Program-made: the position numbers and the translations under genes
Shown here: piece after piece, positions 613 through 20,322 of the stretch
Layout of the letters: each line of letters opens with the position of its first letter
Numbering within the stretch: position 1 is the first letter of the stretch
The notes under the pieces: generated by a model
The model's database searches: none
Told to the model about the DNA's origin: nothing
Seen by the model: the letters and a program-made list of their open reading frames with translations, nothing else
Source of the DNA: a virus
Length of the DNA: 20,322 bases
Reading direction: 5' to 3' (one strand)
Virus record (IMG/VR): IMGVR_UViG_3300035157_000334
Span: 1 to 20,322 of that record

Positions 613-981
613 TCAGGATAAGTCTATCTTTACGTCTATGTTGCCTACATGGCTGTGCATTACTTTGTCTGGTGCTTTAAAGCCAGCTCTATCTAGTATA
701 TCTTTGCTTGCTTCAAGGCTTACATACTCACTCTTTGCATTATGGCTAAGGGATACAATCTTATTCAGTGCTTTCGTAGCATTCAAGCTCATACTGTCTG
801 ATATTGTCTGCATCATGTATTGTTGCACATTTGGTACTCTCAAAGCCTTACTGGCACTGACTCTACCTGATTCACCCTTTGCGTATCCAGCTTCTTCACT
901 AGCTTGCTTTATACTGCATCCTTTTGCTACCAACGTATCAACAAGCTTCTTTTGCTTCTCTGTTATCTTCACAAGTGTCAT
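613..981 (-). CDS. terS: Terminase small subunit
   Basis: 122 aa. Residues about 5-60 contain the helix-turn-helix region typical of phage terminase small subunits: an opening 'TEKQKKLVDTLVAKG', an 'A..AGYA' turn and a following 'RVSASKALRVPNVQQYM'. The C-terminal half is helical, and the end (ILDRAGFKAPDK...) also fits TerS oligomerisation and tail regions. In the family this protein recognises the packaging site on phage DNA and hands it to the large subunit. I chose ATG 981..979 because AAGGTGG lies 5 nt upstream; a GTG nine bases earlier (990) is possible. It is the first minus-strand gene after the large intergenic region, so it likely opens the late operon. Assignment is from sequence pattern, not a search. 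Confidence 0.75.
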   Translation of the reverse strand: MTLVKITEKQKKLVDTLVAKGCSIKQASEEAGYAKGESGRVSASKALRVPNVQQYMMQTISDSMSLNATKALNKIVSLSHNAKSEYVSLEASKDILDRAGFKAPDKVMHSHVGNIDVKIDLS

Positions 982-1106
982 GCCAACCACCTTGCATCAA
1001 ATCAATTGGTCTTGTCAATACGTTAATTTTGTAATCATCCAAAATATTGCCTACGACAGAACGCTAGAATGTTCCAAGTCTGACCAAACACAACCTGATA
1101 AAATCG

Positions 1107-1118
1107 AATACTAGTATT
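1107..1118. repeat. 12-bp perfect palindrome AATACTAGTATT
   Basis: A perfect dyad in the divergent intergenic region, 126 bases upstream of the terS start codon. A site of this form could be an operator for a dimeric phage repressor, or an RNA dimerisation loop if the region is transcribed. No second copy was seen in the window. A 12-bp palindrome is not rare in AT-rich DNA, so the operator role is only a possibility. Confidence 0.35.
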
Positions 1119-1648
1119 AAGCTGTCTGATAGACGCCAGCCGATTTCATCAGAACGCTGTTTGCTCACTAACATTCTACCAACCATGCTCGTATTCAATG
1201 CACAAGTTGACAAGTATGGAGTTAATCTTGTGACGTTGTCACCAATCAATATGCATTTTCTGTCTTCCCCCTTAATTTAATGACTTCGTCATGAATTATA
1301 TAGTTGGGGGTTAGTCTGCAGACGCATGCCCACTGATAGGCGTGGGTTGGGGGGCTGTTGGTCAATATGCCATTCTGGTATGTCGTCGTGCCTAGACATA
1401 CGCGCCATTCTATATTGCCCAGAGAACCCCCAATCTTTTGACCCTCGAAAATGGACTACACACACGAATTCCAATTGTATCATTGCAAGATGATGACTAT
1501 TCCAAATCCCAGTGATTGCAACAACAAAAGCTAGAAAAGGCGAGGTATTATATCTCTCTCTTCCTCGCAAACTTTTTGGCATTGATACTGTTGGCTTCTG
1601 TTCTGTCTAGTCTTCGAGTGCCAAAAACTTTGTTCCCTTTTCTACCCC

Positions 1649-1680
1649 AAGCCCATCGTCGATTCCTTTGGATGGGTTTT
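1649..1680 (+). terminator. Weak terminator-like hairpin
   Basis: AAGCCCATC (1649-1657) pairs with GATGGGTTT (1671-1679) including one G-U pair, with a 13-nt loop, and runs into TTTT. The U-run is short. It could end the candidate noncoding RNA upstream, about 115 bases before the first early gene. On the minus strand the G-U pair becomes a C-A mismatch, so the plus strand is favoured. Confidence 0.35.
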
Positions 1681-1796
1681 GCTGTAAGACTGCAATCAAA
1701 GGGATTCGGAATTGGCACGCGAGATGTAATTGGAATGTGTGTGTAGTTAGTTGTTCCAGTTGCATAATTTTAATCTTAAATATAAGGAGTTTTAAC

Positions 1797-2549
1797 ATGA
1801 GTAATGTAGTTAAATATAATACCAAAGAAGAGAAAACTAAAACACGATTCTTTGAAAATGATATTGTTGGTAAGACACAAGAGTTAGATGTGTTACGTAA
1901 AAGTAAAGAGTATAAGCAGATAGAAAAGTTGTCTGTTAATCGAGAGCTTATCTTGATTGATGTTTTCTATCAGTGGTTATTAGGTAGCGGTGAAGTTTTC
2001 AATCCATTTGAACTTAAGGCTAACATTGATACTATGCAATTAGAGTATCAGCGTAAAGTTAATGGTGAGTGGATTCAAGATGACACTGAAGTTCCAGTTG
2101 GTAATCTTTCTGTTATGTATGAGCTTCAAGACCAGTTATATTCTCATACACGTAAGGATTCTAGAGGTCAGTTTTTAGATTCCTTTTCTAGAACAGTAAG
2201 TACAGCTCTTGGGCAGAAGAACAAAGCTCGTAGTAAAAAGGCTGACCAAATGGAAGGGACTGGTTCTTATACAGATGCAGAGATTAAGCATGACATGAGA
2301 AGGTCACAGATTAACGGTGAGTCTGCCATGCGGATGAAAGAGCTACACATGTACTTGGAAGCTTTGCATCTAGAGTTAACTGGTTCGTGTTACCTTCCAC
2401 CTGAATCTAAAGCACAGCAAGCTAAGGTTAATGCTGAAAAGGCAGAAGCTAAGATGGCTAAAGCTGATGCTGAATTAGAGAAGATGATGGAAGGTTTGGG
2501 TAACAAGCCTACAAAAGAAGAAATCAACTCATTAAGAGAAGATATCTAA
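1797..2549 (+). CDS. Hypothetical early protein, 250 aa
   Basis: I do not recognise this protein. It is the first gene of the rightward operon, starting at ATG 1797 with AAGGAG 7 nt upstream; the frame stays open further upstream, but no start there has a comparable site. Residues 1-90 are charged and mixed. The middle (about 115-180) is basic and rich in Arg, Lys and Ser. The C-terminal 50 residues have a high Ala/Glu/Lys content (KAEAKMAKADAELEKMMEG), suggesting a coiled coil. There is no signal peptide, membrane segment or enzyme motif. Being first after the promoter region and soluble, it may be an abundant early protein such as a host-takeover or nucleic-acid-binding factor, but that is inference from position. 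Confidence 0.8.
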   Translation: MSNVVKYNTKEEKTKTRFFENDIVGKTQELDVLRKSKEYKQIEKLSVNRELILIDVFYQWLLGSGEVFNPFELKANIDTMQLEYQRKVNGEWIQDDTEVPVGNLSVMYELQDQLYSHTRKDSRGQFLDSFSRTVSTALGQKNKARSKKADQMEGTGSYTDAEIKHDMRRSQINGESAMRMKELHMYLEALHLELTGSCYLPPESKAQQAKVNAEKAEAKMAKADAELEKMMEGLGNKPTKEEINSLREDI

Positions 2550-2607: not shown

Positions 2608-2694
2608 ATGATACGCTACATGCTAATCAATTTCTTTATGCTAGCATGCACACTCTATATGATTACAGTAATAGGGTTGGTTATTGGTATATAA
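2608..2694 (+). CDS. Putative 28-aa single-membrane-span peptide
   Basis: A short ORF encodes a peptide opening MIRYMLINFFMLACTL and continuing in the same hydrophobic style to ...VIGLVIGI, with Arg at position 3 as the only charged residue. Essentially the whole peptide is one predicted transmembrane helix. A modest ribosome binding site (TGAGG) lies 7 nt upstream of the ATG. It is bracketed by two related hairpins, 2560-2587 and 2701-2726. Possible roles, all inferred, are a membrane-acting inhibitor, a superinfection-exclusion or lysis-modulating peptide, or a type I toxin-like product. Hydrophobic short ORFs can arise by chance in AT-rich DNA, so reality is uncertain. Confidence 0.4.
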   Translation: MIRYMLINFFMLACTLYMITVIGLVIGI

Positions 2695-15836: not shown

Positions 15837-18800
15837 TTAATCAAGATTTCTGTCAACGGTTGCCGCCAAATCATTAACTTGATTCCTTATATAAGGCAAT
15901 CCTGTAAAGGGTAAATTCTTTGCAGTTTTTGCTACACCTAAACCAAAATCACCAACCATCATTTCATAAATGCCTTGCACTACATCTGTTACATAGCTTG
16001 GTCCAGCCCCAGTTAAACCTATCAAAGACTCGTAAGGTTCATCTTTATACTTAGGATTCAAAAACCCACCAGTAATATTAACACCATTTAATGCAAGCAT
16101 AGAATGAAATGACTCATAAAATAAATCCATGTAAATTGCCGCCACGCCAGAGTATTCTAATGCTCTCATAAGTTTATCTTGTGGCTCCATTTTATCCCAA
16201 GCGTAGTCTGGAGTTCTTAGCCATACTGACATGTAAGCTAAACCAATCCCCACCAACACAGCAGTTGACCTATTCTTTAAAGCACCTTGCGTCATTGATG
16301 CTGTAACCTTGTTGACCGCACCGAGAGAATAAGAATAAAACTGAAATGGTAAAGCTAATAGCTGATTCTCAATTTTTACATAGCCTGGATAATCAGCGTG
16401 TTCACGAAATATACCACCTAAACCTGATTTATCAACAGTGCTTTTTTTAAGAAGAATAACGCCATCAACTAATTTTGGCTTATCAGCTGGTGTACCCATA
16501 ATTATTGTGTTTAGCATTCCAGATGACAGAGATGTTCTAAACGTATCTCGAAGCTCGATGTCATCCCACATATTTGTATTAGCTAAATACAAACCATTAG
16601 TTGATTTTTCTATTACTCCCTCATCAACCAATGCTCGTATTTTATCTGCAGCACTTTTATCAATATCATATCGCAACATATAAAGTTTATCTTGCTCAGG
16701 CAAATTACCATCTCTCGACCACTTAACAGCAGAATCAATATAATGATGAGCCCTTGCTAATGCATCTAATCTTTTCATTGTTTGTGTTGCCCAAGTCAAA
16801 CCATTCAATACATAAAAAGCATTCTTTGTCTTATCCCAAAAAGAATCGCCAAAAGGACTCATGTTTATATCATCAACAAACTTATGTTGTGCAGACCCCA
16901 AAGCCAAATCAATAGCTTCACCATATGCCCCAATATCTTTTACAGTTGCTTTTACTTTTGCATCTGTAAGTGCTTCATACAAAGTAAACATTGTACGACC
17001 AATACCATGATTCATCATTATTATTGCTGGCTCTGCTAAAGTAGCGAAAAAAGCACCGCCAAGATATTTAAGTTGAGCCCCTGTTCTTACTGCATACGCT
17101 ACACTTTTATCCCAGCTATGAGGATTATCTGTAGTTCTACCTACAACAACTCGGTCATAAGCAAAACGTATCTCTTTAAATATTTCTTGAGCCCTTTCAA
17201 CTGTACCACCAGCGTCAGCAACAGAATCAAATATATCATCTTTCATTGAATCTATAGTTGCGTGAGTGCCAAATGTTTTTTTAAACTCAACCATACCAGA
17301 CGTTCTTTCAACATATGCTTTATGTACTTTGAGTGGGTCTAGCTCAATAAAGTCAAGAATAAGTCTATTAGGTATATCTATCTCTCTATGTTTGAAGTGC
17401 TTTGCTTTACCCTGACCAGTATAAATATCTTCTACCTCTTCATAGTTTTCATTTAGAATACGCTGGGTAGTTTCTTTTGCTCTGTTCCTAGCTTCCTTTC
17501 TAGTTGGAGAGCGTGGTATAACATCCATTTGATTTGTTCTTGTATTCCAAGTCACATGGTATGGATTCTTAAAATAATAGTTAGTAAGAATATCCTCAAA
17601 TCTTTTTCTGTTATTCCGTATAGCTCTATGGTCATAGTAGCGAGGGAAGTAGTTTTCTACTATTCTACTGGCTTGGGCAAACTTTTGACCTTCAGCTAGA
17701 CTACGCTTAAGAGCAAGTTCATTGATTACATTTTCTAGCTCAACATCGCTTTCACCTTTTTTAGGTCTTCTCTTACCATGATACAACTCATGGAATATAA
17801 TATAGTCTTCATAGTCGCCTTTAGTTTTAAACTTATCAAAGTTATCATATGCATGCTTCTTGTGGTTCCAAAAAATTGCAGTATCTTCTATCATATCATT
17901 CATATTTCTAACAGCAATTGCCCTTATTTTTGGGTCTATATTTTGCCCTTCTAACGATTTTCTAAAAGCTTTTTTCATAGGAAAAAAATCTTCAGTAGAC
18001 CAGAGTCTATTAGGAAGACTATCAAAAAATGTTTCAAATCTTTTTTTAATGTCATCAATAGTTCTATTATAATTTGGAGATATTCCTTTAAACTTTTCAT
18101 TTGTTCTAATCATAATATCAAGATAGTTAGCAAACTTTTTTTCAAGTGAACCACGCAAATACGCTTCTCGTCTTGCTGGGTCAGTAATCTTAATCATGTC
18201 TTCATAATCTTTGGTTATTACATTTCTGTCTATAAACACAACACCTTTGTTTGGCACAAGCTTACCAAATACCTTTGAATATTTACTGGCACTTAATCTT
18301 GTTATTTGTTTCTCATTAATTATTGTTCTCATGCCGTAATAATGAAAACCCAAAACACTCATATTATTTTTAAACTGTTCAAGCGTCACGCCATCAAGAG
18401 TTCTTTCTTTCTTTGGCAAATCTTTTTGAATCATTTTTATGTACGCATAGATATTTTTCCAGTCATCTAAAATAACTTTTTGCACATTAAACTCTTTACC
18501 AAATAACTTAACCATTTCTTTTTCACTGAGTTCACTAATGTTATTTATGTTGAGAGTAGATGTGTATGACTTAGGTGAAACAGCAACATCTTGCAGTTCT
18601 GCTAATCGGTGAAGCGTAGCTTCTCTTTCTGTATGCAGTTGTTGTATTCTGTTTTGATAACTTTCAACCCATTGTTGCAACCTATCAAAACGTTCATCCT
18701 CAGCGTCTAGCAATCCTTTATTGCGAATCCTTTCTTTATGAGCCGCAATCTTTGTGTTTATTGTTTTCAATTCATTTTTAGTATAGGGCTTGCCAGTTTC

Positions 18801-20322
18801 TTCATTAATACTGCGATAGTTTATTGAGGATAATTTTTTTAACTGTTCATTTATTTCTTGCCTACGACCACTATAGTCATACTTATAAGCTCTTCTAAGA
18901 CTTTCGAGTTCTTCTAATTCTTTTGAATACGCATCAAGCTTTTCTTTGTTCCTAATTATTTCCAAGCGAATATTAGGCAACTTACCCTTAAGATATTCTT
19001 CATTACCAATTAAACCAGCTTCTAGTTTTTCTTTTTCTTCTGCCTTCCAAGTTTTCTTAAGGTATGCAATAGCTTGGTCTTCAACATCATTGTCACCAGC
19101 TTCATCAAGAATGTATCGCATAATCATCTTTGAGCCAAATTCTTCTTCAGTCATTATATCTTTGCTTATGCCAACAGTTCTTCTTGCTTTCAAAAGAATG
19201 TTTGGGACATTAAGCTGTTCCATAGAAAATAAGTTAGTAGCTTCTCTAGGGGCTGACCCTATACTTACTAAGTAGTATGCTCTCATCTTTTGCTGGAAAT
19301 CGTATATCTTACCTTTATGCAATGCTTTTGCCGCATGAACTGCATTGCCTAAATGCATACCTTTCTCAACAAGCTTTAGCATCATACCTTTATCATGGAT
19401 AAGTTTAAGCATATAATATTTCGCAATGCCTGGAGCATTACTGTTTAAAATATTTTTGAGTGGTGTAGGAATAAATTTGAATAGGGGACTATTTACAAAC
19501 CAACTTTCTGTGTAAGCTAAATCTTGTGCTTGCTCATCTATAGCTTGTCTTCTTTGTTTTGCAGTCTTAAGGTTATCTTTATAGTCAAGCCTTAACTGCT
19601 CGATTCTATTTTTTGCTATTTGCACTCGTTTGTTTGCTTCAATCATTTTTTTCTGAGGAGCAGAATCATTCATAATCTTAGCAAACTGACCTTGATGTAA
19701 TTCATTATCTGGATTGAACGCTCTATTTCTACGCTCACCATATATCTTTTTTTTCAGCATAGATGCTCTATAGTTATTATACTCAACTTGAAGCTGTCTA
19801 ACTTTAGTCATCTGCTCATCAATGACTCTTTGCTGTTTCTTGCCAGCCGCTTTAATCTGTTTGTCATTATGTATAATCTGGTCTTGTGTTCCCAGTGTCT
19901 TCAGTTTTGTGAGGTCAATGACTTCATCACCAACCTTCATTGTTTTCTTTTTACCATCGAGAACAGCTTCAGAATCTTTAAACACTCTTGACTTTATTAC
20001 TTTTTGAAGCTCTTCAACCTTAAGCTTTGCTTCATCTCTCATTTTAGTAATAGCTTCAATAGCTAAATCCTTATTGCCACCACCAAACTTTTTAAGTAAA
20101 TCACTAACTGCTTTCCCACCTTTGCCAGCTTTTATTATTTTTAGTCTGCCTTCATTTATATTAAATATAGATTTAGCTTCTTTAAGCTCATCTCTTGTTA
20201 CGGCTATATCATACCGTGTAAAAGGTAGGGATATATCAGGATTAGGTTTGCTTGGAAGATTCATTGTATGTGCATTTTTATATGCATTAGTTGCAAAATC
20301 TACAGCTTCGTTATTTTTTTGT
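15837..20322 (-). CDS. Giant virion protein, probably internal/ejected (5' end beyond window)
   Basis: At least 1475 aa if counted from the Met at 20264, but that ATG has no ribosome binding site and the frame stays open to the window edge, so the true start is probably outside. Long coiled-coil stretches (about 400-480 and 490-560), a zincin-like HELYH at 825-829 in 'IIFHELYHGKRR', and hydrophobic segments near 'LGGAFFATLAEPAIIMM' and 'VLVGIGLAYMSVWL' in the last third are visible. The soluble N-part and membrane-active C-part, directly before a T7-type fibre gene, fit an internal virion protein ejected into the cell to build a DNA conduit (gp16-like position). No lysozyme or transglycosylase motif was seen. 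Enzymatic activity of the HExxH site is unproven. Confidence 0.7.
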   Translation of the reverse strand, partial: QKNNEAVDFATNAYKNAHTMNLPSKPNPDISLPFTRYDIAVTRDELKEAKSIFNINEGRLKIIKAGKGGKAVSDLLKKFGGGNKDLAIEAITKMRDEAKLKVEELQKVIKSRVFKDSEAVLDGKKKTMKVGDEVIDLTKLKTLGTQDQIIHNDKQIKAAGKKQQRVIDEQMTKVRQLQVEYNNYRASMLKKKIYGERRNRAFNPDNELHQGQFAKIMNDSAPQKKMIEANKRVQIAKNRIEQLRLDYKDNLKTAKQRRQAIDEQAQDLAYTESWFVNSPLFKFIPTPLKNILNSNAPGIAKYYMLKLIHDKGMMLKLVEKGMHLGNAVHAAKALHKGKIYDFQQKMRAYYLVSIGSAPREATNLFSMEQLNVPNILLKARRTVGISKDIMTEEEFGSKMIMRYILDEAGDNDVEDQAIAYLKKTWKAEEKEKLEAGLIGNEEYLKGKLPNIRLEIIRNKEKLDAYSKELEELESLRRAYKYDYSGRRQEINEQLKKLSSINYRSINEETGKPYTKNELKTINTKIAAHKERIRNKGLLDAEDERFDRLQQWVESYQNRIQQLHTEREATLHRLAELQDVAVSPKSYTSTLNINNISELSEKEMVKLFGKEFNVQKVILDDWKNIYAYIKMIQKDLPKKERTLDGVTLEQFKNNMSVLGFHYYGMRTIINEKQITRLSASKYSKVFGKLVPNKGVVFIDRNVITKDYEDMIKITDPARREAYLRGSLEKKFANYLDIMIRTNEKFKGISPNYNRTIDDIKKRFETFFDSLPNRLWSTEDFFPMKKAFRKSLEGQNIDPKIRAIAVRNMNDMIEDTAIFWNHKKHAYDNFDKFKTKGDYEDYIIFHELYHGKRRPKKGESDVELENVINELALKRSLAEGQKFAQASRIVENYFPRYYDHRAIRNNRKRFEDILTNYYFKNPYHVTWNTRTNQMDVIPRSPTRKEARNRAKETTQRILNENYEEVEDIYTGQGKAKHFKHREIDIPNRLILDFIELDPLKVHKAYVERTSGMVEFKKTFGTHATIDSMKDDIFDSVADAGGTVERAQEIFKEIRFAYDRVVVGRTTDNPHSWDKSVAYAVRTGAQLKYLGGAFFATLAEPAIIMMNHGIGRTMFTLYEALTDAKVKATVKDIGAYGEAIDLALGSAQHKFVDDINMSPFGDSFWDKTKNAFYVLNGLTWATQTMKRLDALARAHHYIDSAVKWSRDGNLPEQDKLYMLRYDIDKSAADKIRALVDEGVIEKSTNGLYLANTNMWDDIELRDTFRTSLSSGMLNTIIMGTPADKPKLVDGVILLKKSTVDKSGLGGIFREHADYPGYVKIENQLLALPFQFYSYSLGAVNKVTASMTQGALKNRSTAVLVGIGLAYMSVWLRTPDYAWDKMEPQDKLMRALEYSGVAAIYMDLFYESFHSMLALNGVNITGGFLNPKYKDEPYESLIGLTGAGPSYVTDVVQGIYEMMVGDFGLGVAKTAKNLPFTGLPYIRNQVNDLAATVDRNLD

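Follow-up and report, generated by a model that had tools for sequence, protein, structure and literature searches.

The window, a whole 20,322-nucleotide stretch that constitutes a 20.3-kb linear IMG/VR virus record, belongs to a podovirus-like phage and most likely encodes a large noncoding structured RNA at about positions 1045 to 1750 of the minus strand, pointing at the gene for the terminase small subunit (TerS). We assign a probability of roughly one half to the reading that this is the gene for a large modular RNA that is made as a separate transcript and has a structural role in trans of the kind proposed for GOLLD and ROOL. The structured region occupies the divergent gap from TerS, on the minus strand with the other late genes, to the first of the early genes, which occupy the plus strand from 1797. 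Read inward from the right end, the late genes begin with one for an internal virion protein, continue with tail genes, and reach an endolysin gene at about 9,100. The 1475-aa internal virion protein (15837-20264, minus strand) has distant relatives in Pelagibacter phage Hodr and in Vibrio phages; Vibrio phages CKB-S2 and D105, which have this protein in common with the window but lack the divergent early/late layout, were set aside. The first early gene has no family match in PHROG or Pfam. The features of the region are as follows.

613-981, minus strand: TerS gene, first gene of the late operon (phrog_2538, E 8e-13; PF03592, E 6e-9)
989-1018, minus strand: conserved TerS promoter-like element, with TTGACA (1018-1013), 18 nt, and CAAGGT (994-989)
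1045-1750, minus strand, approximate: most likely a large structured noncoding RNA (folding z-scores, covariation, strand tests)
1045-1200, minus strand: module A, about 155 nt (54 pairs, 11 changed on both sides; covariance model R2)
1230-1242, minus strand: small hairpin GUGAC-AAC-GUCAC (GUGAC-AAA-GUCAC in the sequence of relative L004)
1267-1310, minus strand: optional hairpin with CCCCC...GGGGG arms, cleanly missing from close relative L004 (blastn blocks)
1328-1347, minus strand: hairpin with the recurrent loop GCCUAUCA (minus) / UGAUAGGC (plus)
1347-1433, minus strand: three-tier hairpin, arms 1347-1368/1412-1433, 73% complementary
1456-1745, minus strand: Domain I, about 290 nt, nested long-range helices (inverted repeats; alignment A5)
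1767-1795, minus strand: weak candidate promoter for the RNA, TTAAAA-N17-TAAAAT, 9/12 matches, no better than shuffles
1797-2549, plus strand: first early gene, 250 aa, relatives 17-82% identical

The ends of the RNA (5' near 1750-1760, 3' near 1045) were inferred from helix boundaries. A sequence-only reading of this DNA had proposed a large ornate noncoding RNA between the operons at 1065-1680; its structured region is real, its limits were too narrow, and the actual span is about 1045-1750. An inverted-repeat check recovered the stems which that reading had listed, including the three-tier hairpin at 1347-1433 and the 14-nt arms 1568-1581/1619-1632, which are 93% complementary. What the list had overlooked were the outer arms of Domain I. 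This domain is closed by 1455-1465/1737-1747 and 1460-1481/1723-1744, which are followed inward by 1494-1520/1691-1717 (the third overlooked pair of arms), 1532-1540/1636-1644, and the 14-nt arms. Module A contains two AGCGUUCU segments and an apical UCUAUC loop. For the stretch from 1200 to 1450, the main support comes from folding, the loss of modules, and comparison with the close relative L004.

In the relatives closest to the window, which encode flanking proteins 82-95% identical to its own, the open reading frames of the gap (up to 97 aa) are interrupted by stop codons, so the region is not a protein gene. Five open reading frames were tested, and each has stops in near relatives, which bears out the earlier view that no convincing gene is present.

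The folding energy of the region lies outside the range of dinucleotide-shuffled sequences. Positions 1055-1760 fold at -222.4 kcal/mol compared with a shuffle mean of -179.9 (z -6.25), and none of 20 shuffles was as low. On 767 nt, another comparison with dinucleotide shuffles yielded z -4.3 for the plus strand and -6.7 for the minus strand, so that the region is 4-7 SD below shuffles and both strands fold well. The corresponding regions of 19 near relatives were all below their shuffles, with z from -2 to -12 on the plus strand and from -4 to -18 on the minus strand. Across the wider TerS clade and Hodr, most 500-nt segments upstream of TerS had z of -3.6 to -19, the exceptions being L054 and one segment of L056. 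Control sequence downstream of TerS had z mostly between +2 and -3.5, with one value of -4.7. Strong folding at this position upstream of TerS was seen in almost all the relatives tested, Hodr included.

These relatives were found by a TerS search that yielded 80 loci, about 20 of which carry a gene related to the 250-aa first early gene. The gaps were grouped by DNA similarity into G1 (the window, L004, L005, L016, L017, and L019), G2 (L006, L007, L010 to L013, and L015, to which a pattern scan added L100, L105, and L107), G3 (L014, L022, and L024), G4 (L020 and L021), and G5 (L008 and L009). Gap length ranges from about 0.5 to 1.1 kb, and the RNA from 500 to 1,000 bases. The isolate Pelagibacter phage EXVC031P Hodr, whose TerS is 61% identical to that of the window, has a reduced version consisting of one long imperfect hairpin and small stems. 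A scan with a module A pattern gave L111 to L113, which were rejected as chance matches because they align poorly and because two of them, L111 and L113, come from other phages and are high in GC. Among 50,697 phage genomes, blastn found no match to the region. Scanning prokaryote genomes with TerS returned only five marine MAG contigs of mixed taxa, which are uninformative on the host. The position between the divergent operons is fixed across these loci while the sequence turns over quickly.

Covariation was evaluated in alignments of the relatives. The G2 alignment (A2) has 126 consensus pairs, with pairing in 97.8% of cells and changes on both sides at 39 of the 126 pairs, compared with a mean of 19.5 for partner-shuffles and 1-8 for structures slid along the alignment. 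Relatedness can inflate the shuffle tests; the slid controls retain relatedness and are still far lower. In alignment A5, which covers the large domain of the window together with L004, L005, L016, L017, and L019, 12 of 64 pairs change on both sides (slid controls, 0-2). The same type of change was found at 11 of the 54 pairs of module A when the window was compared with G2, and at 9 of the 28 pairs of the core hairpin of G3 to G5, with few independent lineages in each alignment. Three G-U pairs of module A stay fixed between divergent copies. Since the structures were derived from the same alignments, they are favored over slid structures in percent paired, and the both-side changes are the stronger evidence. 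The alignments show that the predicted helices are kept by compensatory change.

Gain and loss of sequence tracks structural units, because the blocks missing from L004 are module A and one whole hairpin. L004 is close to the window elsewhere. It is without the approximately 195 bases (1029-1223) that hold module A, and without 1265-1309, which form one complete hairpin; L004 131/132 abuts window 1264/1310 in the blastn alignment. The window shares module A with L006, L011, L105, and L106, whereas L004 and L012 do not have it. Covariance model R2 matches module A on the minus strand with an E value of 2e-30, and L008 and L093 have only its apical half (E 2e-10 and 2e-9). The groups have modules in common rather than the whole RNA, since the core-hairpin model R1 does not reach the group of the window. 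Hairpin loops with CUAUC (minus strand) recur on unrelated stems, with one orientation in all clear cases but one.

Folding energies alone cannot decide the strand, and strand-neutral mismatch tests were therefore used. Helix prediction excluded G-U pairs, only helices obtained on both strands were retained, and a mismatch was counted if it was single and had three pairs on either side. Read on the minus strand, 48 loci had 69 G-U versus 14 A-C in-helix mismatches, and 60 versus 13 when duplicates were removed (composition expectation, 57%; p = 6e-6). The near group had 25 versus 2, and the window alone 3 versus 0. For G2 pairs mapped between relatives, the plus reading gave 378 A-C versus 179 G-U, A-C on the plus strand being G-U on the minus strand; the same mapped count in G1, 136 versus 110, was weak and mixed. 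The G2 alignment energy was -121 kcal/mol on the minus strand versus -97 on the plus strand, and G2 pairs found in both folds had 9 G-U cells and 0 A-C in the minus reading. The G-U bias and the alignment energies therefore indicate that the RNA is most likely on the minus strand, directed towards TerS. The sequence-only reading had taken G-U pairs to favor the plus strand, a claim that these counts contradict. The covariation, the clade-wide position, and the absence of a gene strongly support its central proposal, a large and ornate RNA without coding function in the gap between the operons. Of the outcomes that it had named as counting against it, a lack of covariation among homologues and a folding energy inside the shuffled range were both checked, and neither was observed.

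The sequence between the RNA and TerS probably contains the late (TerS) promoter of the clade. TTGACA, with 17-18 nt to a hexamer resembling a -10 element, recurs upstream of TerS in most relatives, most clearly in Hodr (TTGACA-N17-TATACT); the second hexamer of the window is poor. No convincing conserved promoter for the RNA itself was found on the early-gene side in the window or its relatives. In G2 (alignment A2) a U-run follows the last stem, as for an intrinsic terminator. Several other relatives have no U-run, and their last hairpin is within a few nucleotides of the TTGACA box, so read-through into TerS is possible. A consensus terminator scan of the window gave none. On the minus strand, G2 also has 7-9 consecutive U in the middle of the gap, within the RNA region (A2 columns 505-515); these could act as an internal terminator and divide the RNA of that subgroup into two.

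The early operon contains a second strongly folded stretch, at 2550-2940 after the first early gene, with the plus strand favored (z -5.7). The equivalent stretches in relatives, which include coding sequence, had 20 G-U versus 5 A-C in the plus reading. L006, L010, L011, and L015 have a long plus-strand hairpin, gcgagcUGAUAGACgcucgc, with a loop complementary to the recurrent GUCUAUC loops. An unannotated, conserved micropeptide of 26-28 residues, MIRYMLINFFMLACTLYMITVIGLVIGI, apparently membrane-spanning, is encoded at 2608-2694 (plus strand) in the window and at a similar place in L010, L011, L014, L015, L022, and L024; the remaining relatives have a different small hydrophobic peptide there.

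In the preferred reading, transcription would start beside the first early gene and end just upstream of the TerS promoter. We infer a separate transcript because of the U-run after the last stem in G2 and the separate conserved TerS promoter downstream. The RNA would fold compactly, and its repeated exposed loops, GYCUAYCR on unrelated stems, may dock with RNA segments, with other copies, or with a phage protein. It would then act in trans late in infection as a structural RNA, as proposed for GOLLD and ROOL. A more tentative extension, which we hold at clearly less than even odds, is that these are members of an undescribed class of very large modular RNAs, fixed between the early and late operons of a marine podovirus-like clade, each built from interchangeable modules with the same docking loop and perhaps working as an RNA particle that assembles itself, or by kissing-loop contact with a second structured RNA, that of the early operon.

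One alternative is that the region is a cis-acting 5' leader of the TerS/late transcript, with a role in antitermination, RNase III processing, timing, or stability. The region is on the minus strand, in the direction of TerS and always directly upstream of it, the last hairpin abuts the TTGACA box without a U-run in several relatives, and the retention of synteny while sequence changes fits a role in cis. However, TerS has a conserved promoter element of its own, clearest in Hodr, on the side facing the RNA, and the G2 U-run precedes that promoter. Furthermore, to our knowledge, 500-1,000 nt of modules with tertiary-like complexity far exceeds what known antitermination leaders need. A leader is a possibility to be taken seriously, albeit a rather doubtful one. 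An antisense regulator, in which the 5' part of the RNA or its GUCUAUC-type loops would pair with early plus-strand RNA, appears unlikely. It would account for the hairpin with a complementary loop, UGAUAGAC, in the early RNA of several relatives, including gcgagcUGAUAGACgcucgc in the early operons of L006, L010, L011, and L015, for the structured stretch after the first early gene with its plus-strand z of -5.7 in the window, and for the overlap, in some relatives, of the closing stem with the complement of the ribosome-binding site of the early gene. Yet the complementary loop has a clear stem in only four loci, the window is without it, and no covariation between the two loops is demonstrable.

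The remaining explanations do not invoke a functional RNA. A DNA element, either a pac site beside TerS or a replication origin acting as double-stranded or cruciform DNA, would fit the adjacency to TerS and the strong folding of both strands. Such an element predicts no strand bias, whereas the minus-strand mismatches are 60 G-U versus 13 A-C (p = 6e-6) and three G-U pairs of module A are fixed between divergent copies, which makes this explanation improbable. Single stems of 5-9 bp commonly arise by chance, but the z-scores, the covariation above slid and shuffled controls, and the broken open reading frames make it scarcely credible that this is an ordinary intergenic region with chance stems, or the remains of decayed genes.

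The RNA in the window is not a recognized member of a known family; the sequence-only reading had likewise recognized none. No Rfam model, including GOLLD and ROOL, matched the window or 18 related loci at the gathering level, permissive thresholds gave only chance-level matches to eukaryotic miRNA/lncRNA or enterobacterial sRNA, and for GOLLD, window positions 950-1850 had no hit with E as high as 5. No account of the present RNA emerged from literature searches. OLE, raiA, and HEARO are likewise large structured bacterial RNAs that are not known as neighbors of phage late operons, and the present RNA differs in having no Rfam match. The phi29 pRNA, of about 174 nt, is a phage structural RNA that multimerizes through loops, and the present RNA adjoins a terminase gene; in contrast, the present RNA is 500-1,000 nt, has no Rfam match, and is accompanied by a canonical TerS gene. 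GOLLD offers a closer comparison, being phage-encoded, often over 800 nt, and ornate, with many hairpins with conserved loops and with one part more conserved and another variable. It forms a 14-mer RNA cage, and its expression rises during lysis. GOLLD is often near tRNA genes, whereas ARAGORN found no tRNA gene anywhere in the window, and the present RNA adjoins TerS between divergent early and late operons, with groups that are weakly alike in sequence and have only modules in common. ROOL is similar in size class, phage location, and dense secondary structure; its two halves are described as intertwined (PMC12286853), unlike the present RNA, which gains and loses modules. GOLLD and ROOL form RNA-only cages of unknown function (PMC12286853). 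The present RNA is like them in kind but is not a member of either family, because their Rfam models do not match.

Few large structured phage RNAs are known (GOLLD and ROOL), their function is open, and the present one is unrelated to them in sequence. Across a diverse clade of marine phages it keeps a fixed place while entire folded modules are gained and lost, and the alignments of its relatives offer strong covariation data for studies of RNA structure. One relative, Hodr, has been grown on the very abundant bacterium Pelagibacter. Thus, a new modular RNA at a fixed place, with a relative cultured on a SAR11 strain, makes the function of giant phage RNAs testable in a new, ecologically important system.
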